A stretch of DNA of 64,000 nt from Acidobacteriaceae bacterium (lineage in GTDB: Bacteria; Acidobacteriota; Terriglobia; Terriglobales; Acidobacteriaceae), in the NCBI GenBank assembly GCA_021323655.1, contig JAJPKO010000037.1:62001-126000 (forward strand), read 5' to 3'. The notes below the pieces were generated by a model. That model was not told the origin of the DNA. It did not search any database and saw nothing but the letters and a program-made list of their open reading frames with translations. A program made the position numbers and the translations under genes. This document shows, piece after piece, positions 1,000-43,491 of the stretch; the first letter of the stretch is position 1, and every line of letters begins with the position of its first letter.

Positions 1000-1026
1000 T
1001 CGTCTATGCTGTCAGAGTAAGGGACC

Positions 1027-1233
1027 CTAGTTATTGCGCACTACGTTGGCGGCGCTAAGTCCCTTTGGGCCTTGCTGGCACTCAAACTCTACTGATTCGC
1101 CCTCGTTCAGGGTCTTGTATCCGCTGTCCTGGATCGCGGAGAAGTGGACGAAAACATCCTCTCCCGTCGAACGCTGGATAAATCCATAGCCTTTGGCTCC
1201 ATTGAACCACTTCACAACACCATGCTCTTTCAC
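1027..1233 (-). CDS. Cold-shock (CspA-family) nucleic-acid-binding protein
   Basis: This 68-residue protein is a single cold-shock domain with both RNA-binding motifs: KGYGFI (RNP1, about residues 14-19) and DVFVHF (RNP2, about 26-31). Such proteins melt RNA secondary structure and bind single-stranded nucleic acid in the cytoplasm. The start is the GTG at 1233-1231: AAAGGAG sits 5 bases upstream on the minus strand, and the product then begins [10 protein letters not shown], the normal start of the family. A longer frame to 1320 adds 29 unrelated residues and is not used. Stress or cold control is likely from the family, not shown here. Confidence 0.93.
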
Positions 1234-1664
1234 GCGAACTCCTTTCTCATTGTGAGCTTCCGGAAAAAGACACCCCAAGAAACCAAAGGCCGCCACTTCT
1301 GCGAAGGGCAGCCTTTTCAATCCAGGTAGATTTTCCAGAAACTGTTACTAAACACAAACAACTGGCCTTCCAACGATTACTCAGTCGTCCTGAAAGACAG
1401 ACTGTGCCATATGTTATGGCAGGAAAGCACTTGAGAAATCAAGTAAAAAATGGGACCAAAGCCAATAATTTTCAGTAAGTTACCAAAGGACACTGGCCTT
1501 TGGTAATTTTAAAAAGGCGGCTCTTTGTAACGGAAGAAGGTGAAGGAACTGCCAGTGGAATGGCCTTTTTACCTAGACGGCCCCAGGGCCGGAAAAGGCA
1601 CACCGCTCTTCAGCCCTGTTTATCATAACTCTATGCCGATCTCCTCTCTTGTGCAGCAGTTGCT
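1234..1664. other. Non-coding divergent region between the cold-shock and yihY-like genes
   Basis: About 430 bases with no convincing coding frame. It must hold the promoters of both flanking genes, which diverge. Visible structure: the perfect hairpin at 1480-1506, and three copies of a TGGCCTT core (around 1364, 1495 and 1560). I recognise no riboswitch. Confidence 0.5.
1480..1510 (+). terminator. Perfect 10-bp hairpin followed by TTTT
   Basis: TTACCAAAGG (1480-1489) pairs perfectly with CCTTTGGTAA (1497-1506) across a 7-base loop, and TTTT follows on the plus strand. This is the shape of an intrinsic terminator or attenuator reading rightwards. It lies about 155 bases upstream of the yihY-like start with no plus-strand gene just before it, so it may act in a leader transcript or end a small RNA. 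Confidence 0.45.
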
Positions 1665-2546
1665 ATGCCGCTAAAAGATGCTGTGCCACCGCTGGCCCGC
1701 CCACCCCGACGCAACCATGGTGTTGTGAACCAGACCGTTTCGCTCGCGCGCTATCTAACGCAGACTGAGGTGCATACGTACGCCTTCAGCGTGGCGGCCA
1801 ATGCCATCCTCTCACTCTTCCCTTTCATCGTGCTTATGTTCACGCTTGCGCGCCGCGTCTTTCATTCTCAGGCAATGGAGGACGTGATCGGCGACATGTT
1901 GCGCTATTTTCTGCCCTCAAATCAGGATTTCGTTGTCCGCAATATGAGCCGGCTGGCCAATCCACGCGGAGGCGTACAGGTGCTCTCCCTGGTCATGCTG
2001 CTCATTTCCTCCACCGGCGTCTTCCTGCCGTTGGAAGTGGCCCTGAACCGCGTCTGGGGAGTAAACAAAAACCGCAGCTACGTGATGAACCAGCTTGTCT
2101 CGCTCGCATTGGCGCTCGGCGTGGGATTATTAGCGCTGACTTCCATCGCATTTACCGCCGCTCAGGGTGAGGTACTCAGATTTATCTTCTTCGGGCAGAC
2201 CAATAACATCGTCTATCTGTTTTTTGAGCGAGGCTTTCTGCGGATTTCAGCCGCATTTCTGAGCGTTGCGCTGTTCTCCATCATTTATTGGGCACTGCCG
2301 AACCGGAAATTGCCTCTGCGTGCGGTCCTGCCCACGGGCATCGTGACTGGACTCATCTGGGAAGGCGCCAAATGGCTCTTCGTAAAAGTCCTGCCATGGC
2401 TTGACCTGCGCGCCGTGTACGGACCATTCTCTGTCTCCGTCACTCTGATGATGTGGGCCTTTCTCACCGGATTAATTCTTCTTGCGGGTGCACAGTATTC
2501 CGCTACCCGGTTCGCTCTCCGCATGGTGCAGGAATCAGAAAGCTGA
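1665..2546 (+). CDS. YihY/BrkB-family inner-membrane protein
   Basis: A 293-residue polytopic membrane protein with about six hydrophobic segments (roughly residues 38-60, 100-125, 138-165, 180-205, 222-245 and 255-282). The blocks AFSVAANAILSLFPFIVLM and FLPLEVALNRVWGV match the YihY/BrkB family, formerly called ribonuclease BN by mistake. Molecular function is not established; members have been linked to serum resistance and envelope function. The ATG at 1665 has only a weak ribosome site, but no better in-frame start fits. The gene is monocistronic and converges on the YtxH gene. Confidence 0.88.
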   Translation: MPLKDAVPPLARPPRRNHGVVNQTVSLARYLTQTEVHTYAFSVAANAILSLFPFIVLMFTLARRVFHSQAMEDVIGDMLRYFLPSNQDFVVRNMSRLANPRGGVQVLSLVMLLISSTGVFLPLEVALNRVWGVNKNRSYVMNQLVSLALALGVGLLALTSIAFTAAQGEVLRFIFFGQTNNIVYLFFERGFLRISAAFLSVALFSIIYWALPNRKLPLRAVLPTGIVTGLIWEGAKWLFVKVLPWLDLRAVYGPFSVSVTLMMWAFLTGLILLAGAQYSATRFALRMVQESES

Positions 2547-2682
2547 GCGGGGCCCCTGGGCCATGCAGATTTTCCTTCTCGTGTCGCCTTTCTCCATCAT
2601 CTTCTGGGTGATGAAGTGTCAGGAAACCCCTTTCCCTATATATTGCTGGACAGGCCGACTCTCAGCCGACCCCCCATTAATC

Positions 2683-2702
2683 TCGCTCCAGGGGTGGAGC
2701 GA
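2683..2702. terminator. Hairpin between convergent genes
   Basis: TCGCTCCA (2683-2690) and TGGAGCGA (2695-2702) form a perfect 8-bp stem with a GGGG loop. It lies between the converging yihY-like and YtxH genes and could slow or end transcription from either side, although neither side has a clear T tract. Confidence 0.4.
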
Positions 2703-2719
2703 CCGTCTGGTGATTGTGC

Positions 2720-2995
2720 TTACACAATACTTCTCACGCGTTTTGCCGCTGTGGAATACGCGCTGCTGGCGGAATCCAGAGCATCTTCCACTGCTTCTCT
2801 GCTGGCTTTGTATGCTGAGATAGCACGCTCACCAAGAGTATCTGCGGTATCGTGCACATAATCGGCCGCATCTTCCAGTTTGCGGCGCACCTGCCGGCGG
2901 GTCCGCTCACCTGTTTGCGGAGCGTAAAGCAATGCGATCGTTGCTCCCGCTGCGATGCCGACTGCAAATGCCGTCCAGAACTTCCATCCGTTCAT
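2720..2995 (-). CDS. YtxH-domain small membrane protein
   Basis: A 91-residue protein starting MNGWKFWTAF, with one membrane segment rich in Gly/Ala (about residues 5-24, ending LLYAPQTGERTRRQ). A long charged helix follows, probably a coiled coil, with regularly spaced Ala, Asp and Lys/Arg. The LYAPxxGxxTR signature defines YtxH proteins, usually linked to general stress. The start at 2995 is supported by AAGGAG 6 bases upstream; the longer frame to 3106 runs into unrelated sequence. The exact role is unknown. Confidence 0.88.
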   Translation of the reverse strand: MNGWKFWTAFAVGIAAGATIALLYAPQTGERTRRQVRRKLEDAADYVHDTADTLGERAISAYKASREAVEDALDSASSAYSTAAKRVRSIV

Positions 2996-3077
2996 ATTTC
3001 GCTCCTTACACGCAAAGTACTCGAACTGAGATACGCAATTCGGCACCGAGGGTTGCCGAGGGTAGACGGCCCGGAAA

Positions 3078-3530
3078 AATCTGCAACTTTCCGGCGTACC
3101 TATCATCGGCTTATCGGCGAAGCAGGAGTGGGCTACCCCTCCGCCGCGACTTCAATGCCCCCGCCTCTGATGTTTGCGCGTGAAGAGATCGTGGCGGTAC
3201 TTCCACTGGAAGTACGCGAGCGCGCAGATGAGGTCTTGCTCTATGCCCTGGGTTTCGCGCCTCGACATGCTGCACAGCGCAGCACAGGAACACCGGATTG
3301 TTCTTATCGTATATACATCCGCGAAGATGGCCAGTCCAGTGTCAGACGTGCGCATCCATTTGGCCCTCTATTTCTGGGGTGAAACATGGGCCATGGCTGC
3401 ATGGTGCGAAATGCGCAATGACTTTCGCACCTTTCGCGTGGATAGAATACAGCATCTGGAAACCCTCGATGAGGTTTTCACATCAAAAGCAGGCCAGATG
3501 CTGTCAGACCTATTTGCGGAGAGCGCGTAG
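3078..3530 (+). pseudogene. Decayed WYL-domain (YafY-type) transcriptional regulator
   Basis: Family blocks appear in order but in three frames. Frame of 3078: LQLSGVPIIG. Frame of 3116: GEAGVGY, then PPPLMFAREEI and LPLEVRERADEVLLYALGF. Frame of 3174: AAQEHRIVLIVY, then FWGETWAMAAWCEMR and DFRTFRVDRI, ending at 3530. These match the linker, middle and WYL ligand-binding parts of YafY-type regulators, which normally have about 230 residues with an N-terminal HTH. Here the HTH is missing, the middle has lost roughly 50-100 residues, and two frameshifts remain. It cannot give an intact regulator. Identification is by motif memory and is clearest for the last 60 residues. Confidence 0.75.
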
Positions 3531-3553
3531 CAAATGCGCGCAGTAGCAGCACT

Positions 3554-4519
3554 TCAGCACTCTATATCTGCCTTCTTCAACGTGTCTTTCAGACCCTGCA
3601 TGCTGACGCGGGTTGAGGCTTCCGGAGTGCCTGCACCGCGCCAGTGCGTCTCGAGGCTTACCGCATAGTGGTATCCATCGCGCTTCAGTGCTTTGAATTG
3701 ACCGACCCAATCCACTACACCTGCTCCCACCGGCGCCCATTCGTACTTACCGCCAGGCAGGCGCTTTACATCTTTGCAGTGGCAATGTCCAATGCGATCC
3801 TTTGGCAGGGCATCATAACCGTTGGGGTACGGTGTGTTGTCCGGGAAAGTCGCCGCATTGCCTGGGTCCCAGTTCAGCATAAAGTTCTTGTTCGGAATTG
3901 CCTTCAGAACAGCTGCCGCCTCTTCACCTGTGGCCGTATTGCACGACATCTCGTTCTCAAGAACAAGAATCAGGTTGTGCTTCGCGCACTTTTCTGCCGC
4001 CTCACGCAGCTTGTCGTTAATGGCAGCTCGATATTTCTGTGGATCATCGAGCCTCCAGAAGTCGAAGCAGCGGATGCGGTCTGTTTTAAATGCCTTCGCT
4101 GTTTCAATACAGATATCCAGCAACTCGTCCTGCTGCTTGAAATCGAAGCTGGCCTTGAACTGGTCGCGGTGTTCAGAAAATTTGGAAGCAGGTGCGCCCG
4201 GCCAATCTGTTTTAAACAGCGGACTGGCAATATCGGTAACACGCAGCCTGTATTTGGTAAGAATACGCTGTGCCTCTGCGATTTCACTTGAACTGAGATT
4301 GCTGATGTTCTTGTTCCACATACCACGCAGCTCAATCCAATCCAGTCCAAAATCATTGGCTGCTACCGAGCACGCATGGTCAAAGTCCTGACTGATCTCG
4401 TCGTTAATTACAGAGAGGCGAAATGGGCAGCTCTTCATTCTCTGGGCCAGGGCCGACACGGTTGACATAAGTCCTGAAGCGGTCAGACCGCCCACAAATG
4501 CTCGACGCGAAATTGACAT
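3554..4519 (-). CDS. Secreted sugar-phosphate isomerase/epimerase-like TIM-barrel protein
   Basis: A 321-residue protein with a twin-arginine-type leader (SRRAFVGGLTASGLMS) and an AP-endonuclease-2/xylose-isomerase-like barrel. Likely metal ligands are the Glu of LENE, the Asp of NWDPGN, the His of GHCHCKD and the Glu of SLETHW. Such proteins isomerise or epimerise keto-sugars, or act on related sugar acids; the substrate cannot be read from sequence. The start at 4519 (MSISRRAF) has GGAGG 5 bases upstream; the longer frame to 4570 has no support. It lies 128 bases behind the TonB receptor gene on the same strand, suggesting a shared carbohydrate pathway. Confidence 0.82.
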   Translation of the reverse strand: MSISRRAFVGGLTASGLMSTVSALAQRMKSCPFRLSVINDEISQDFDHACSVAANDFGLDWIELRGMWNKNISNLSSSEIAEAQRILTKYRLRVTDIASPLFKTDWPGAPASKFSEHRDQFKASFDFKQQDELLDICIETAKAFKTDRIRCFDFWRLDDPQKYRAAINDKLREAAEKCAKHNLILVLENEMSCNTATGEEAAAVLKAIPNKNFMLNWDPGNAATFPDNTPYPNGYDALPKDRIGHCHCKDVKRLPGGKYEWAPVGAGVVDWVGQFKALKRDGYHYAVSLETHWRGAGTPEASTRVSMQGLKDTLKKADIEC

Positions 4520-4622
4520 GCAACCTCCAGAATCAGCAACAAAGTTATGGTAACGCATCCATAACGGCAATCAGGCGAAGAAGGAGCGTTCTTCAGATTT
4601 CGTACCGGAGAACGGTATCGAA

Positions 4623-4641
4623 GGATGAAGAGCAATCATCC
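4623..4641 (-). terminator. Short hairpin after the TonB-dependent receptor gene
   Basis: GGATGA (4623-4628) pairs with TCATCC (4636-4641) around a 7-base loop, starting 6 bases past the receptor stop codon on the minus strand. The stem is short and the tail is only TTC, so it is a weak terminator candidate. Confidence 0.35.
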
Positions 4642-4647
4642 TGGAAT

Positions 4648-7600
4648 TCAGAATCGAATGATTCCAGAGAGCTGTAAAGCCCGGCCGCCGCCTGTTCCGT
4701 TTACACCGGAGCCTGATCCAATGGTAGAAGTAACCTGTCCAAAGGTGCCGCTGGTGATGGAAGCGCTGGGATTACCAAATTGCGGAGTGTTGCTTAATTG
4801 GAAAGCATCCACTCGTGTTTCTAATGTCAGATTTTCCCACAACGGGAAAGTCTTAAAGGCAGAAACATTGTCCTGAATAAATCCAGGGCCATAGAACTGG
4901 TTCCGTCCAGAACTGCCCAGCGTGGTTCCGTAACGGACAGAACAAGGTGTGCCCGTGCACCCCACTGGTTGCGTAAAGCTCGTCGGATCAAACCATTCCT
5001 TCCCTGGCCCAATTCCATGAAGCACATGGAATGGTTTCACGAGGTTCGCCGTCTGTGTCTGTCCTGGCGTATTGATAGATCCGCCATTTGCTGTCACCGT
5101 AAATGGCGTGCCGGACACAACAGAAATGATGCCAGACAGCTTCCATCCGCCAAATGCAACCGAGCTGAAGCCGTGGCTAAGCCACCGTTTTCCTCTTCCG
5201 AATGGCAATTCATAGGTAAAGCTCTCTTCAAAATTGAGCCGACGGTCAAAATCATTCGGAGCATAGTTATGCCGCTGGTCTATCCAGAAAGTCAGACCGC
5301 CATCGTCACCGCTCTGATAACCCAGTCCCTTGCCCCAGGTGAAAGCAGTCTCTGTCGCCAGACCATTATTGAATCGACGCGTCAGTTGCGCCTGCAATGC
5401 TTGGTAATTCGATGAAAACCCTAAGAAGTAAACATTTGTTGCCGCCGTGCGCCCAAAAGCAATAGCTTCTGGTTCTGCTGTCGGACCCAATCCTAATGCA
5501 GGGGGAAGGTTCACATTCTGTGCGGAACCGATTCGAACCCCATGATTACCTACATAAGACAGCTGCATCGTAAATTGACCAGGAAGCGCCTGCTCAATTG
5601 CCATATTCCACGACTCAACATAAGGATTCTGATAGTTCTTTGGAATCACGACGTAGGACTGATTTTTAGGTGCAGGCAAAATCCCGTTGGAAGGAATCGT
5701 AACAGGCTTAGGCGCTGGAAAGCCCGATTGAAATGTTGCCACCTGCCCGTTATCCAGCACAGCCGGAGTATACGCGCCCAGCGGCTGATAGCTGTTGTTT
5801 GCACGGACTGGATAGTTATAGGCATATGTATTGTCCGGAAACGGCATATAGCTGATACCAAACCCGCCGCGGAAAACCGTCTTGTCTGTTGCGCGGAAGG
5901 CAAACCCGGTACGCGGAGCAAACCAGGTATAGCGCGTCTTCATACCCAGGTTCGAAGGATTACCACCCACTCCAGCGATGACAAGTGTGCTCGTTGTTGG
6001 ATCGTAGTTCGAAAATCCGCCGGACTTGCCCGGGATAGCAGGCGGATAAAACTCCCATCGCAGTCCGAGATCAAGCGTCAGTTTTGGCGAGGCCTGCCAC
6101 TTGTCTCCTGCAAACAGAAAAAGCCACCACTGCCGATAGGCAGGCGAATAAGTATTAATGTCACGCCCGACCTGGCTCGGCACATCCAGCAAAAAGCTGG
6201 CCATATCATTGGCGACATTTGTCTTGCCGTCTTTGATGGAAGTCTGATTTTCGCTGAAGGTGATCACGCCACGCGGGCTGAAGGTCTGGTCCTGTAATAG
6301 ATTGTCCTGTACCCGGCGCAGATCTCCACCAAACTTAAAGGTGTGATTACCTATGATCTTTGTCCAGTGGTTTACAAAATCAATGTTTGCCTCTCCGCGC
6401 CTCCATGGAAGCGAAGCAGAATACCCGATAATCGGGCTGCTGAAGGAGCCAAGCGAAATCCCTACCTGACCACTTGTGAACTGGCTGATGTTCACTCCCG
6501 GTATCCCAATCTGTGTGGCATAGTCATGACCATATCCGGCTGGCGTAGCGTTGTTGTGGTAGTGTGCTATCCCAAAACGAACTTCCGTCAGTAAAGTTGA
6601 TGAAAACGCACGATCATAGTTGACTCCAGTGCTATACGCGTTCTGGATTCCAGTTCCTTCAAAGGCGCCCTGGGCAGGCCCGCCAGCAACCTCTCCAAAA
6701 ACAGGGGCTTGGTATGTATTTACCTTCTGGAAGCTAAAGCGCCCGCTCAGATGGTCCTTTTCAGCAAGCTGCGCGTCAATTTTTGCGTCATACGAGTCCG
6801 CCGACTTTTGAAAAGGAAGAACGGCAAAATAATTATTGCTCGGCGCAGATAATGAAGTACCTGCAATCTCAGCTGGCAACAGTTGCAACAGCTTCAGCGA
6901 GACCGGATTTACACGCCCCAATGGGATCTGATTATTCGGGAATGGCGTCCTTCCGCTGCCATCCGCATTTCCAGTGGATGGATCATAAATCTGGCCAGTG
7001 CCATCGCTTTTGAGTGGCGCGCTCAGATCAATATATCCATTGGCATTGGGTGTATAGAATTCCTTCGGCGGAATGGTCAAAACATTAGAGTTTGATTCAT
7101 GGTCTGATGTCCGGTAATAGTCTCCATAGAAAAACAGCCTATCTTTAATGACAGGCCCGCTGAAGTTACCTCCGAAATAGTTGTATGCAACATGCCCCAC
7201 TTTCTTGCTGAAGTAGGAACGCGCATCGAAAACACTGTTTTGCAGGTATTCAACGACGGACCCATGAAAAGCGTTAGAACCAGACTTAAGGGTGACATTC
7301 GTTACCGCACCGATGGCTCTTCCGAGCTCGGCCTCAAAGTTATTCGTTGAAATGTCTACCGTTTGAATGGCATCCGCAGGTGGAATCATGATCTGGAGCA
7401 AGCCTGTACGCTCATCATCATCAATTCCCTCAATCTGGTAACTGTTTCCCATGCGTGGAATGCCGTTAACTTCTGTCTGCAAGGAACTTTGCGCATTAAA
7501 AAATTGTGAGTGCTGGAAACTTGCGGGCGTAGTACCCGGTACAAGGTTTAACAAGCCTTGAAAATTTCGATTCACGCTCAACGGCATGTCTTCCACGTGC

Positions 7601-8037
7601 CGCGCTTCAAACTTCGTACTCACATCGGCACGATCCGTCTGCAGAATCGGGGGAACATCTGTCACCGTAATGATTTCCGTCGTACTTCCCGGCTCAAGGT
7701 TCATGTCAACACGTGTGGTTGTGTTCACAATTACGTCTACTCTGGCTCGGGTTTCCTTCTTGAAGCCGGTAGCTTCTGCCGTGACCGAATATGCCCCTGG
7801 CGCCAGATCAGGAAAAGTATAGTTTCCGCTAGCATTGGTAGTAGCCTCATGAGTGATCCCCGTGGAGATTTCCTTGATCGAGACTTTGGCGTTGGGAATG
7901 CTCGCACCCGTCTTGTCATTGATACTGCCAAGAAGTGTTGCTGACACTGCCTGAGCATTTCCTGAGACGGAAAAACACAGGAACAGCACGATCGTTACGG
8001 CCAGAACCAGCAGGCGGTACTTATGAATGGATGTCAT
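4648..8037 (-). CDS. TonB-dependent outer-membrane receptor with carboxypeptidase-regulatory domain
   Basis: This 1,129-residue protein has a signal peptide (about residues 1-30, ending near SGNAQA), a carboxypeptidase-regulatory-like beta-sandwich (about 31-115, with VSATLLGSINDKTGASIPNA), a plug region (about 120-250) and a long beta-barrel ending in IIRF with the C-terminal Phe typical of outer-membrane proteins. The architecture is the Oar-like receptor class that is greatly expanded in Acidobacteriota, inferred to import oligosaccharides or other large nutrients using TonB energy. GGAGAGG precedes the ATG. A LacI-type operator sits 73 bases upstream. Divergence from a uronyl-hydrolase relic and nearness to kduI suggest a pectin- or uronate-derived substrate. 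Confidence 0.93.
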   Translation of the reverse strand: MTSIHKYRLLVLAVTIVLFLCFSVSGNAQAVSATLLGSINDKTGASIPNAKVSIKEISTGITHEATTNASGNYTFPDLAPGAYSVTAEATGFKKETRARVDVIVNTTTRVDMNLEPGSTTEIITVTDVPPILQTDRADVSTKFEARHVEDMPLSVNRNFQGLLNLVPGTTPASFQHSQFFNAQSSLQTEVNGIPRMGNSYQIEGIDDDERTGLLQIMIPPADAIQTVDISTNNFEAELGRAIGAVTNVTLKSGSNAFHGSVVEYLQNSVFDARSYFSKKVGHVAYNYFGGNFSGPVIKDRLFFYGDYYRTSDHESNSNVLTIPPKEFYTPNANGYIDLSAPLKSDGTGQIYDPSTGNADGSGRTPFPNNQIPLGRVNPVSLKLLQLLPAEIAGTSLSAPSNNYFAVLPFQKSADSYDAKIDAQLAEKDHLSGRFSFQKVNTYQAPVFGEVAGGPAQGAFEGTGIQNAYSTGVNYDRAFSSTLLTEVRFGIAHYHNNATPAGYGHDYATQIGIPGVNISQFTSGQVGISLGSFSSPIIGYSASLPWRRGEANIDFVNHWTKIIGNHTFKFGGDLRRVQDNLLQDQTFSPRGVITFSENQTSIKDGKTNVANDMASFLLDVPSQVGRDINTYSPAYRQWWLFLFAGDKWQASPKLTLDLGLRWEFYPPAIPGKSGGFSNYDPTTSTLVIAGVGGNPSNLGMKTRYTWFAPRTGFAFRATDKTVFRGGFGISYMPFPDNTYAYNYPVRANNSYQPLGAYTPAVLDNGQVATFQSGFPAPKPVTIPSNGILPAPKNQSYVVIPKNYQNPYVESWNMAIEQALPGQFTMQLSYVGNHGVRIGSAQNVNLPPALGLGPTAEPEAIAFGRTAATNVYFLGFSSNYQALQAQLTRRFNNGLATETAFTWGKGLGYQSGDDGGLTFWIDQRHNYAPNDFDRRLNFEESFTYELPFGRGKRWLSHGFSSVAFGGWKLSGIISVVSGTPFTVTANGGSINTPGQTQTANLVKPFHVLHGIGPGKEWFDPTSFTQPVGCTGTPCSVRYGTTLGSSGRNQFYGPGFIQDNVSAFKTFPLWENLTLETRVDAFQLSNTPQFGNPSASITSGTFGQVTSTIGSGSGVNGTGGGRALQLSGIIRF

Positions 8038-8109
8038 GACCTCTCCTCAGGAACTACAAGCTCGCCCTTCGCGTGTAGAAGCAATCAGAATTGCTACGGA
8101 GGTTAATAT

Positions 8110-8123
8110 TGGAAACGTTTGCA
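8110..8123. promoter_or_regulatory. LacI/GalR-family operator
   Basis: TGGAAACGTTTGCA fits the palindromic consensus TGNAANCGNTTNCA of LacI/GalR-family repressors at every fixed position, including the central CG. It lies just downstream of a TTGACA-type promoter for the TonB receptor, where a bound repressor would block transcription start, and between that gene and the divergent hydrolase relic. No LacI-family gene is in the window, so the regulator is elsewhere. Confidence 0.65.
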
Positions 8124-8153
8124 AAACTAACGAGCGGTCGGAAGAATTGTCAA
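8124..8153 (-). promoter_or_regulatory. Probable sigma-70 promoter of the TonB receptor
   Basis: On the minus strand TTGACA (8153-8148) is followed after 18 bases by TAGTTT (8129-8124). The -35 box is perfect and the -10 box is poor (3 of 6). The predicted start falls within the LacI-type operator next to it, giving a coherent repressible promoter. Confidence 0.45.
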
Positions 8154-8280
8154 GCAAATCCAGAAAACGAGACTAAGTCCCAGATAGCGGGACGTGATTG
8201 CCAGCTTTTTGAGACATTTGCTGTCAGCGTTTGATACACCATTTCTTAACCGGATGCAGTTGACTCGCCGGAACCCAAAT

Positions 8281-10196
8281 ATGCGCGTGCGATACTTTTG
8301 CCTGTTCCTTCTGCTCGGATTCACCGTGCCCCTCCTTCTTTCCTCGAATGCCCAGGAACTTCCGTGGTCACAGCGCATGGCGAATACAACGACCCAACGC
8401 TGGCCGGATGGAAAATTTGTTGCGAACGACACCCTCTGGAAATGGAATTATGAACTCGGCGTCCTGCTACAGGGGATGGCAGATGTCTGGTATCACACTG
8501 GCGATGCGACTTACTACAAATACATCAAGAGCGCAGTAGACAATTTGGTCAGCAGTGATGGCTCGATTCCAACCTACAGGCCAGAAGACAATGAGCTGGA
8601 TGACCTCGCACTCGGGCGCACACTGCTCCTGCTCTATGGAGTAACCCAGGATGCTAAGTATTACAAAGCTGCAAAGCTGCTTCGCGATCAGCTCAAGGTA
8701 CATCCGCGAACTACTGAAGGCGGCTTCTGGCATAAGCAAAAATATCCCAACCAGATGTGGCTCGATGGCCTGTAAATGGCAGGACCTTTTTATGCCAACT
8801 ACGCAGTCACCTTCTATGAGCCGCAGGATTTTCAGGACATCACAAAGCAATTTGTTTTGATGGCCAGACACGCACACGATTCAAAAACCGGCTTGCTCTA
8901 TCACGGTTGGAATGAAACCAGACAGCAGCACTGGGCAAACCAATCCACAGGAGCATCGCCAACTTTCTGGGCCCGCGGTATGGGTTGGTATATGATGGCG
9001 CTCGTAGACACACTTCCCTACTATCAGTCGGACGGCCGGCGCGCACAACTCCTCGACATTTTGCGAAGGCTGGCTGCCTCCATCACCAGGTATCAGGACA
9101 AAGAGACTGGCCTCTGGTATCAGGTGATGGACAAGCCCCATAAAAAGGACAATTATTTTGAATCCTCTGCATGTTTACATATGCGCTTGCAAAAGGCGTA
9201 CGGTTGGGATACCTGCAACCATCCTACGCACAAAACGCTGAACGGGCATGGGAAGGCATTCTGAAGCAATTTGTACAGACAGACTCGGACGGTAGACTCA
9301 CCCTCACTGGTACGGTCCGCGCCATCGGACTCGGAACAGGCCCTGGCAACGATGGAAGCTACGAGTACTACACATCTCAGGAAGTCGTCCGGAATGACCC
9401 AAAAGGCGTCGGCGCATTTCTGATGGCGGCAACAGAAATCGAGTCTGCTCAGACGACAAAACTCGGACGCGGCAAGACCGTCCTGCTGGATGCCTGGTAC
9501 AACAGCCAAACACGCAAAAACGCCGCAGGACAAACCGTTCTCTACCACTACAAATGGGACGACTTCGCCAACAGCGGCTACTCCATTTTTGGCCACATGC
9601 TGCGCGAATATGGACTCAGGACAGAGACCCTGCCCAAAGCGCCAACTTTATCCGATCTCAACAAAACACAAGTTTACCTGATCGTTTCGCCTGACAACCC
9701 ACAGTGGAACAAGAACCCACACTACATGAATGAGGCAGATGCCAGAGTGGTTGCAGACTGGGTGAAAAGCGGCGGAATGCTTGTCATCATGCAAAATGAC
9801 CCTACCCACTCCGACATTGAACACATGAATATTTTGGCGGACAAGTTCGGGATGCACTTTAACAATGTGCAACTCAACGCTGAAGAGGGTAACCATTTTG
9901 AAATGGCGCGTATTGATGTCCCCGGAAAAGGTCCGGTCTTCCATGCTCCACACGTTCTATTCATGAAAGAGATATGCACCATTTCGCCTAAACCGCCTTC
10001 TACTGCCGTATGGACATATAAGGGAAGCGTTCTGCTTGGAAAGGCCAGATACGGCAAAGGCGTAGTAGTTGGCATGGTAGACCCTTGGCTTTATAACGAA
10101 TACACAGATTGAAGAAAACTTCCACCACCGTATGACAACTTCGCGGGCGGCAAGGAATACATTCGCTGGCTGTTAGAACAGCTTCCAACACATTAA
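8281..10196 (+). pseudogene. Broken GH105/GH88 unsaturated rhamnogalacturonyl hydrolase with C-terminal GATase-like domain
   Basis: An original protein of about 638 residues is split by three lesions. It has a signal peptide (MRVRYFCLFLLLGFTVPLLL), then a six-hairpin GH105 domain (WKWNYELG, ELDDLALGRTLLLLYG, MWLDGL, GMGWYMMALVD, SGTVRAIGLG-like TGTVRAIGLG), then about 200 residues resembling the DUF4350/GATase-like domain fused to such enzymes. TAA at 8773-8775 stands where LDGLYMAGP is expected (TAC to TAA). A one-base-type frameshift lies near 9165 (ESSA, then MFTYALAKGVRLGYL). TGA at 10110-10112 is followed in frame by RKLPPPYDNFAGGKEYIRWL to the true stop at 10194. GH105 enzymes remove unsaturated uronic acid ends left by polysaccharide lyases. 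Confidence 0.88.
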
Positions 10197-42152: not shown

Positions 42153-42197
42153 TGGTAGCGCCATCGGGGATCGAACCCGAACTCTCCGCCTTGAGAG
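42153..42197 (-). repeat. Distal attachment-like repeat (tRNA-Glu 3' fragment)
   Basis: Forty-five bases identical to the 3' part of tRNA-Glu, from within the anticodon stem-loop through the T arm, acceptor strand and CCA. Identity stops at 42198. It cannot fold as a full tRNA. Confidence 0.92.
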
Positions 42198-42352: not shown

Positions 42353-42360
42353 TGTCATAA
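42353..42360. repeat. TGTCATAA octamer, distal copy
   Basis: One copy of the octamer repeated three times at the other end of the element (43301-43347). It lies about 155 bases inside the distal attachment repeat and overlaps the 3' end of the 205-residue gene. It may be an arm-type recombinase site. Confidence 0.4.
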
Positions 42361-42972
42361 GGAATCCCGATTGAAGGGATGCTTCTCAAGCCATTCTTCT
42401 AAAGCCCTTGCCTTGTCATCAAGCCCCATTCCCCGGAAGATCGGAACCAAACACCCAATTGACGCAGTTCCCGAAGTCACAAGTAGTTCAATGACCATCT
42501 CATCCGAATAGTTGGGGCCAACGTTGCCATCATCTCGAAACTGACGGCCTAGCTGTTCCAGACCTGAGTGTGTGTATCCGTTCAATGTTGCCCAATGGTC
42601 TGCAAAACTCTGAAGCCAACCGCCAGCCCCATACTTGTTGTCAAGTTCAGTAGCCATCGGCCTGAATCGTGGAAAAGGTTCTTCGCCCTTCTGCCCAATT
42701 GCATTCACTTGTTCATCGGTTGCAATCAAGTTCACCCACAATCCACGAAACGCAGTCTCAATTTGTGATCGCAACAACGCGAAAGCTGACGCTGGCAAAT
42801 GCTGACTGATTAAGCTATGAATCGCTTGGTGATGACCCATTGCAATTAAAACGTATGCCCACACAAGGTCATGGCGTGGACTTGATGGCAGGTTCGCACC
42901 ATGCAGTTGCGACAATATAACGTCCAATGCGCCCTTGTTGTAATCCAGTGCTTCATCAATTGTGTTTGCCAT
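42355..42972 (-). CDS. 205-residue helical protein of unknown function in the tRNA-Glu element
   Basis: A mostly alpha-helical soluble protein with no signal peptide or membrane segment. The stretch LLRSQIETAFRGLWVN (about residues 66-81) gives an L-x-R-x-x-x-E-x-x-x-R-G-x-W pattern that I associate, from memory, with uncharacterised families such as DUF6988 and DUF5677; this needs a profile search. No nuclease or kinase motif is visible. AAGGAAT precedes the ATG, and a 51-codon ORF ends 13 bases upstream on the same strand. As the only substantial gene in the element it is a candidate cargo function such as phage defence, but nothing in the sequence proves this. Confidence 0.7.
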   Translation of the reverse strand: MANTIDEALDYNKGALDVILSQLHGANLPSSPRHDLVWAYVLIAMGHHQAIHSLISQHLPASAFALLRSQIETAFRGLWVNLIATDEQVNAIGQKGEEPFPRFRPMATELDNKYGAGGWLQSFADHWATLNGYTHSGLEQLGRQFRDDGNVGPNYSDEMVIELLVTSGTASIGCLVPIFRGMGLDDKARALEEWLEKHPFNRDSL

Positions 42973-42985
42973 AGCGTTTATTCCT

Positions 42986-43141
42986 TCAACGCACCACGCG
43001 GTATACTGCCGTAAACATCAAGCCTGTACGATCACGATTGATGCCTACAATGTTCTGTGGCTCTTGCCCCTCACACTGCTTTGCCGCTTCAGCAGCCGCA
43101 ATGGTTCCTGCTGGCAGCCCTAGCATTTCGGACGTCCGCAT
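42986..43141 (-). CDS. 51-residue small protein upstream of the 205-residue gene
   Basis: On the minus strand an ATG at 43141-43139 is preceded by AAGGTGG (43157-43151) at 9-base spacing and runs 51 codons to TGA (42988-42986), ending 13 bases before the next gene. The N-terminal half is Ala-rich (AGTIAAAEAAKQ) and the C-terminal half contains GINRDRTGL. I know no family for it. Organisation and ribosome site fit a two-gene operon with the 205-residue protein. It could also be the remnant of a longer gene, because an overlapping frame starts at the ATG near 43203. Confidence 0.45.
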   Translation of the reverse strand: MRTSEMLGLPAGTIAAAEAAKQCEGQEPQNIVGINRDRTGLMFTAVYRVVR

Positions 43142-43300: not shown

Positions 43301-43347
43301 TGTCATAAAAATATTGGTACGGCTGTTTGTCATAAAGAATGTCATAA
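43301..43347 (+). repeat. Three TGTCATAA octamers near the tRNA-proximal end
   Basis: TGTCATAA occurs at 43301-43308, 43328-43335 and 43340-43347, all in the same orientation, 68-114 bases from the tRNA-Glu repeat. A fourth copy lies near the other end at 42353. Direct repeats of this size flanking a core site are typical of arm-type binding sites for tyrosine recombinases or their directionality factors; this is inference. Confidence 0.5.

Positions 43348-43414: not shown

Positions 43415-43491
<77 letters not shown>

Follow-up and report, generated by a model that had tools for sequence, protein, structure and literature searches.

A DUF6988 defence-candidate gene alone in a minimal tRNA-Glu(CTC) element of an Acidobacteriaceae bacterium

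Introduction

The locus analysed here raises the question of whether a short stretch of DNA behind a tRNA gene in an Acidobacteriaceae bacterium constitutes a mobile element, how many genes it carries and what their products might do. The locus lies in a window of 64,000 nucleotides, the whole stretch of DNA that was analysed. A preliminary description, made from the letters of this window, had proposed a tRNA-borne element with a two-gene cargo, a 51-residue and a 205-residue protein organised in the manner of a toxin-antitoxin or small defence operon, and had put forward DUF6988 and DUF5677 as leads for the larger protein. In the DefensePredictor study, 94 units were tested against 24 phages and 42 of them were validated (PMC13092281). 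The available text of that paper counts DUF6988 with four other DUFs as "newly implicated in defense", from units protecting E. coli MG1655; the same text names no mechanism for DUF6988 and leaves unstated which unit contained it and whether that unit is a single gene. It is the sole paper to mention DUF6988 among 5.39 million open papers, and PDC-S52, the PADLOC family that the 205-residue protein also matches, is mentioned in none of them. In this work we analyze the anatomy of the element, the reality and family of its two reported frames, and the distribution of their homologues.

Results

The element is delimited by an exact duplication, over 45 bp, of the 3′ end of a tRNA-Glu(CTC) gene, with 1262 bp separating the starts of the two copies, and this duplication bears out the proposal that the element is tRNA-borne. 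Its landmarks are:

43415..43491, minus strand: intact tRNA-Glu (CTC) gene, the integration target (ARAGORN; Rfam tRNA, 68.2 bits)
43415..43459, no strand assigned: 45-bp direct repeat, attL-like copy within the tRNA gene (exact repeat)
42153..42197, no strand assigned: 45-bp direct repeat, attR-like copy at the far end of the element (exact repeat)

We place high confidence in this anatomy of a tRNA-borne insertion with an att-like duplication. The interior of the element has a GC fraction of 0.475, versus 0.558 for the window, and the element is flanked on the outside by genes for an Asp/Glu racemase and a luciferase-like monooxygenase (Pfam). The sole recognised gene between the 45-bp repeats encodes the 205-residue DUF6988 protein, and the flanking repeats uphold the earlier view of this gene as cargo of the element. 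An integrase-sized open reading frame (ORF), which an autonomous integrative element would hold between its ends, is absent from the element: besides the 205-codon gene, the largest frame in the ORF list has at most 66 codons. The 13 matches to PF00589 in the genome all fall on contigs other than that of the element. The retention of attL- and attR-like ends (the 45-bp repeats) with no integration or transfer genes recognised (ORF list) is the arrangement of a CIME as outlined in the available text of PMC5704250, from which the element departs in being just 1.26 kb long.

A second copy of the element was found neither in the same genome nor among 277 fetched loci, and no parent element turned up in the genome's 13 integrase loci or in the fetched loci. 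Of the 277 fetched loci, three showed a match to the element at E 0.01 (L158, L051 and L025), in each case inside the 205-residue gene, and its non-coding parts by themselves yielded a single 26-bp match (E 0.67). An Rfam scan of the element returned the tRNA only, a plastid UTR on the opposite strand reaching 24.2 bits, under the cut-off of 65.7, and a scan of the element for sigma-70-type promoters returned none (shuffles average 1.9).

The octamer TGTCATAA occurs five times in the 64-kb window, with four of the five copies, in a single orientation, inside the element:

43301..43347, plus strand: three TGTCATAA motifs (43301, 43328 and 43340) near the tRNA end, candidate integrase arm-type sites by putative function
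42353..42360, plus strand: fourth TGTCATAA, near the attR end and overlapping the stop codon of the 205-residue gene (motif count)

Four copies of this motif were observed in none of 1000 shuffles, and at least four copies of any 8-mer in 9 of 1000. Because the copies are laid out at both ends of the element, we read them as integrase arm sites, which they may be; operator sites are the alternative. The motif is found in none of the genome's own 13 integrase loci, and a 22-base pattern of the TGTCATAA pair gave no match in viral contigs.

The tRNA-Glu end, allowing at most three mismatches, is present in 53 of 300 genomes of the family, and three of the 300 hold two copies on one contig (source genome, 1262 bp; G001, 762 bp; G033, 8367 bp); since three genomes hold a doubled tRNA end, we take the site to be in use. 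In G001, the one congener searched (L112, tRNA-Glu at 4034-4110; also L070:2667-3476), the same tRNA-Glu(CTC) is the site of a 762-bp insertion between the copies of a 48-bp repeat (98%); its largest ORF has 78 codons, short of integrase size, and it has no DNA similarity to the 1.26-kb element. Together with the source genome, this gives two species of one genus with dissimilar mini-insertions at one site. In G033 (L111, G033:C35:50000-61000, positions 1012-9455), an 8.4-kb element occupies the same tRNA, with an integrase adjoining the tRNA, large primase/helicase-like and resolvase-like proteins as read by eye, and short GTGACT-type repeats resembling arm sites at both of its ends. Two contigs of G566 (L118 and L119), on both of which ARAGORN places a tRNA-Glu, are near-identical downstream of the tRNA-Glu end and different upstream, and look, perhaps, as if empty and occupied sites coexisted in the assembly.

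Two frames had been reported on the minus strand of the element, 13 bases apart, with AAGGTGG and AAGGAAT upstream of their ATGs and with L-x-R-x3-E-x3-R-G-x-W in the larger product. All of these features were confirmed in the sequence, the last at residues 66-79 of the 205-residue protein:

42355..42972, minus strand: gene of the 205-residue DUF6988 / PDC-S52 protein, with an AAGGAAT ribosome site upstream (Pfam, PADLOC, codon-position pattern)
42986..43141, minus strand: 51-codon open frame that we do not regard as a gene (length at chance level, searches for relatives negative)

We consider the 205-codon frame a gene because codon position 3 varies most and because of its length. Relative to its two nearest relatives (L158 and L041, 57% and 45% identical at the protein level), the differences at codon positions 1/2/3 amount to 34/26/61% and 36/36/70%, and dinucleotide shuffling of the 1217-bp interior produced an ORF of at least 205 codons once in 300 trials. 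The protein scores 72.8 bits against Pfam DUF6988 (PF22491; curated cut-off 27) over residues 42-168, and matches PADLOC PDC-S52 at 3.7e-20 over positions 16-153 of the 211 in that profile, in a library that shows no curated cut-off. With the E limit set to 10, the 19 proteins of alignment A4 match both profiles without exception. Judging from these profile matches, we assign the gene with high confidence to DUF6988/PDC-S52, to which it adds a member of an already known defence-candidate family. Its membership is full by the curated cut-off and the invariant residues are common to it and its homologues; it is set apart by its solitary position in a minimal tRNA element and by the distance of its best relative found (61% identity in the best segment), the nearest named one, in Edaphobacter aggregans DSM 19364.

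Against DUF5677 (PF18928), the 205-residue protein scores 13.9 bits, below the cut-off of 27.1. Compared profile to profile, DUF6988 and DUF5677 align with a probability of 92% and E 6e-7 (hhalign; reversed-profile controls 0.1-0.2%, integrase 0.3%), and an R, an E/D and an H are common to all 12 aligned DUF5677 members. By profile comparison, DUF5677 is a true distant relative of DUF6988, and the DUF6988 lead, with DUF5677 at a distance, is sustained by the Pfam and hhalign scores. No NCBIfam family matched the 205-residue protein and its best PHROGs match had E 0.28; viral contigs held no confirmed relative, and phage records no match at E 0.01.

In an alignment of 48 family proteins, from which L048 (stop), L172 (truncated), six duplicates and five of nine plasmid records were left out, residues L66, R68, T134, H135 and G137 do not vary. 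An acidic residue occupies position 72 throughout (E42/D6), position 76 is basic in 46 (R44/K2/N2), position 131 is mostly polar N, H or D (N25/H14/C5/S2/D2), and position 130 is L40/M7/A1, with no arginine. The HEPN features given in the available text of PMC3710099 are an Rx4-6H motif whose R is followed by a polar N, D or H, and an Ex3[KR] element further upstream. Residues 130-135 of the present protein read L-N-G-Y-T-H and residues 72-76 conform to Ex3R, and the sequence at 130-135 places the typical HEPN motif in register except for its arginine. The motif Rx4-6H is thus lacking in all 48 proteins, which have L, M or A at 130 where R is expected, and the polar residue and the H are present (N/H/D at 131 in 41 of 48, H135 in 48 of 48). 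The Ex3[KR] element is present too (E/D72 in 48 and R/K76 in 46 of 48), a weak match because this spacing is common in helices.

An AlphaFold2 model of the 205-residue protein is a confident helical bundle (pLDDT 90.9), which aligns to HEPN entry 2hsb with Z 10.8 and rmsd 2.6 over 122 residues. Other HEPN entries follow (sacsin, Z 10.4; 4nqf, 10.1) and the first non-HEPN row stands at 8.6, values of a kind that helical bundles, by the tool's own warning, can reach by shape alone. The model of a distant homologue from B. ambifaria (pLDDT 90.6) aligns to 2hsb with Z 8.5 and rmsd 3.3 over 126 residues at rank 50, with rhodopsins at Z 10.7 and 2hsb as the sole HEPN-titled row among the 50 listed. 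Both Z lists re-examine matches that Foldseek had itself proposed, and entries missing from them therefore exclude nothing; Foldseek alone gave nothing at E 0.001 or better. Comparison of DUF6988 with HEPN and HepT by hhalign gave no link, in a setting where the HEPN-HepT positive control failed too and the profiles were small (7 sequences each from 14 and 18 loci; DUF5677, 12 from 17; at least two mutual hits required). A PDB sequence search returned weak repeat-protein hits for the single protein (best E 0.011) and a best E of 1.7 for the profile, and Cas_Csm6_HEPN matched 1 of 19 homologues at a non-significant E of 0.072. With HEPN toxins and RNases (2hsb, HepT) the protein shares the retained Ex3[KR] and N/H/D-x3-H parts, and in one model its bundle aligns with theirs at Z 10.8, a match that is not robust in the second model; it differs from them in having L/M for the motif arginine and in its lack of a sequence-profile link. 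Because the defining arginine is absent and the fold match is not robust in the second model, we do not file the protein as HEPN. It may work like a HEPN effector; our confidence in HEPN-like chemistry is low to moderate.

The 51-codon frame is probably not a gene. When the 442-bp leader was shuffled with dinucleotides preserved, 826 of 1000 sequences contained an ORF of at least 51 codons (538 of 1000 counting the minus strand only), and two further ORFs, of 51 and 53 codons, are present in the actual leader. The 51-residue product belongs to no Pfam, PADLOC, NCBIfam or PHROGs family and has no confirmed relative in viral contigs. Searched with tblastn against the 1.5 kb upstream of 44 homologues, it gave a best E of 0.64, with no hit whatever upstream of L158 and L041, and the Edaphobacter relative has a 180-residue ORF in the upstream position instead. 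Hits at E 0.007 or weaker occur in 9 other genomes of 398, and at the three loci where ORFs were called (L062, L063 and L067) each hit is overlapped by an ORF longer than its own frame could provide. The preliminary description had itself named lack of conservation of this frame with the 205-residue gene as the outcome that would count against its reading, and the tblastn result is that outcome; the conserved small partner gene of a type II toxin-antitoxin pair was not found at the 44 homologues. On the shuffling and upstream-homology results, the two-gene cargo was rejected.

Counting the source genome, DUF6988 homologues occur in 4 of 100 relatives and 25 of 398 genomes of the family and, by the Pfam model, in 5 of 396 genomes of the phylum. 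The source genome has one copy, and 9 of 72,556 plasmid records carry a homologue. The distribution is patchy. On an Aliarcobacter faecis plasmid (L014, 2191-6540), one of four plasmid regions inspected, the homologue comes right after two genes with DUF262, a domain of some phage-restriction systems. In Edaphobacter aggregans, the homologue and a convergently oriented tyrosine integrase (profile E 4.6e-37) overlap at the end of the latter, and a protein read by eye as a serine recombinase is encoded two genes upstream of the homologue; a resolvase-profile hit at this locus proves nothing, since the Edaphobacter protein was one of the two from which that profile had been made.

After removal of 6 duplicates from 51 scanned loci, integrases were present in 6 of the 45 distinct homologue loci versus 1 of 20 control loci, and tRNA genes in 7 of 45 versus 5 of 20, with homologue loci of unequal length (3.6 to 20.6 kb) set against controls of 18 kb. 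The tRNA counts indicate that travel with tRNA islands, suggested as a trait of the homologues, is not general. Neighbourhoods are mixed, with housekeeping genes among them. A scan of 138 neighbour proteins of up to 900 residues, from 28 of the 45 loci, gave single strong PADLOC hits (GajA, type I methyltransferase) among the best 25 of 144 families matched, and the corresponding scan of 135 control proteins, drawn from a wider span, gave matches to 19 families, the best at 1e-22; as many PADLOC models overlap, we claim no enrichment of defence neighbours. Ten large neighbours scanned singly yielded one hit, the methyltransferase. At L053:8499-10381 (G029), the homologue lies 50 bp upstream of a 13-gene tRNA array. 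At L048 (G754:C6), the homologue is broken by a TGA, and the locus has an integrase and two tRNA-Glu genes.

Discussion

We judge it somewhat probable that the locus is a 1.26-kb integrase-less insertion behind tRNA-Glu(CTC), carrying a one-gene DUF6988/PDC-S52 phage-defence effector with HEPN-like action. The element would be what is left of an integrative element, or a part of one that was carried passively, CIME-like in nature; an integrase acting in trans, or one present in an ancestor, would have moved it, and its arm-type sites would have been retained. Its 205-residue protein would be a one-gene phage-defence effector, quiet until infection, when it would stop the growth of the infected cell through an action on RNA resembling that of HEPN toxins. 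The working site would most likely consist of the R68-x3-E72-x3-R76 helix face and the N131-x2-T134-H135-x-G137 turn.

The defence link proposed for the locus on its context is backed, at the level of the family, by the PDC-S52 match and by the DUF6988-containing unit validated in E. coli (PMC13092281). That unit, compared by domain name alone in the available text, has the same Pfam domain and was phage-tested in E. coli, and it comes from a host phylum other than that of the 205-residue gene. By this analogy, we hold with moderate confidence that the gene may serve phage defence. Evidence for this reading of the locus comprises DUF6988/PDC-S52 membership, the validated unit, patchy presence, carriage on plasmids, the Edaphobacter integrase, the att duplication, the lower GC, the clustering of TGTCATAA, the conserved residues and the first model. 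Arguing against it are the lost arginine, the second model, the lack of a Foldseek match at E 0.001 or better and of an hhalign link to HEPN or HepT, the mixed neighbourhoods, the absence of TGTCATAA from the genome's integrase loci and the empty promoter scan.

Other readings of the locus account for some of these observations. DUF6988 could have an accessory role outside defence, such as that of a helical regulator binding RNA or a ligand, in what would be just a decayed island; the housekeeping genes next to several homologues, the integrase counts (6 of 45 loci versus 1 of 20 controls) and the lack of tRNA enrichment agree with this, and we regard it as rather unlikely in view of the PADLOC candidacy, the experimental validation of a DUF6988-containing unit in the available text of PMC13092281, the patchy presence and plasmid carriage, and codon positions 1 and 2 that vary less than position 3. 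The element could also have arisen without integration, the 3′ end of the tRNA having been duplicated locally and other DNA acquired by chance, as its size of only 1.26 kb, its lack of an integrase-sized ORF and the lack of a second copy in the genome or among the fetched loci would allow. This is very unlikely: the repeat is the tRNA 3′ end, which tyrosine integrases leave duplicated, the same tRNA in relatives holds the 762-bp (G001) and 8.4-kb (G033, integrase adjoining) insertions, and TGTCATAA clusters at the ends of the element.

A genuine two-gene toxin-antitoxin system, with a fast-evolving 51-residue antitoxin and a 205-residue toxin, would fit two frames on one strand, 13 bases apart, both with plausible ribosome sites, and small antitoxins can diverge beyond recognition. 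It is nevertheless highly improbable, given the chance length of the 51-codon frame (826 of 1000 shuffles), the want of any family, of a confirmed viral-contig relative and of a relative upstream of the 44 homologues, and hits in relatives that reach E 0.007 at best and overlap longer ORFs at L062, L063 and L067. A possibility that we advance tentatively is that DUF6988 and DUF5677 form an unrecognised HEPN branch, in which the active-site arginine would have moved from Rx4-6H (now L/M-N/H-x3-H) to the invariant helix residue R68 of R-x3-E-x3-R, here in a one-gene, integrase-less tRNA cassette that keeps its arm sites.

Conclusions

The locus is a minimal tRNA element, either decayed or moved passively, whose only recognised gene is a defence candidate from a known family. 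The 48-protein alignment gives a short list of residues for the study of its mechanism (R68, E72, R76, N131, T134 and H135), and, to judge by the 1.26-kb element, a unit with little beyond its att ends and candidate arm sites may be able to carry a defence-type gene. If DUF6988 and DUF5677 did constitute a HEPN branch, a validated yet unexplained defence domain would be a re-wired RNase.
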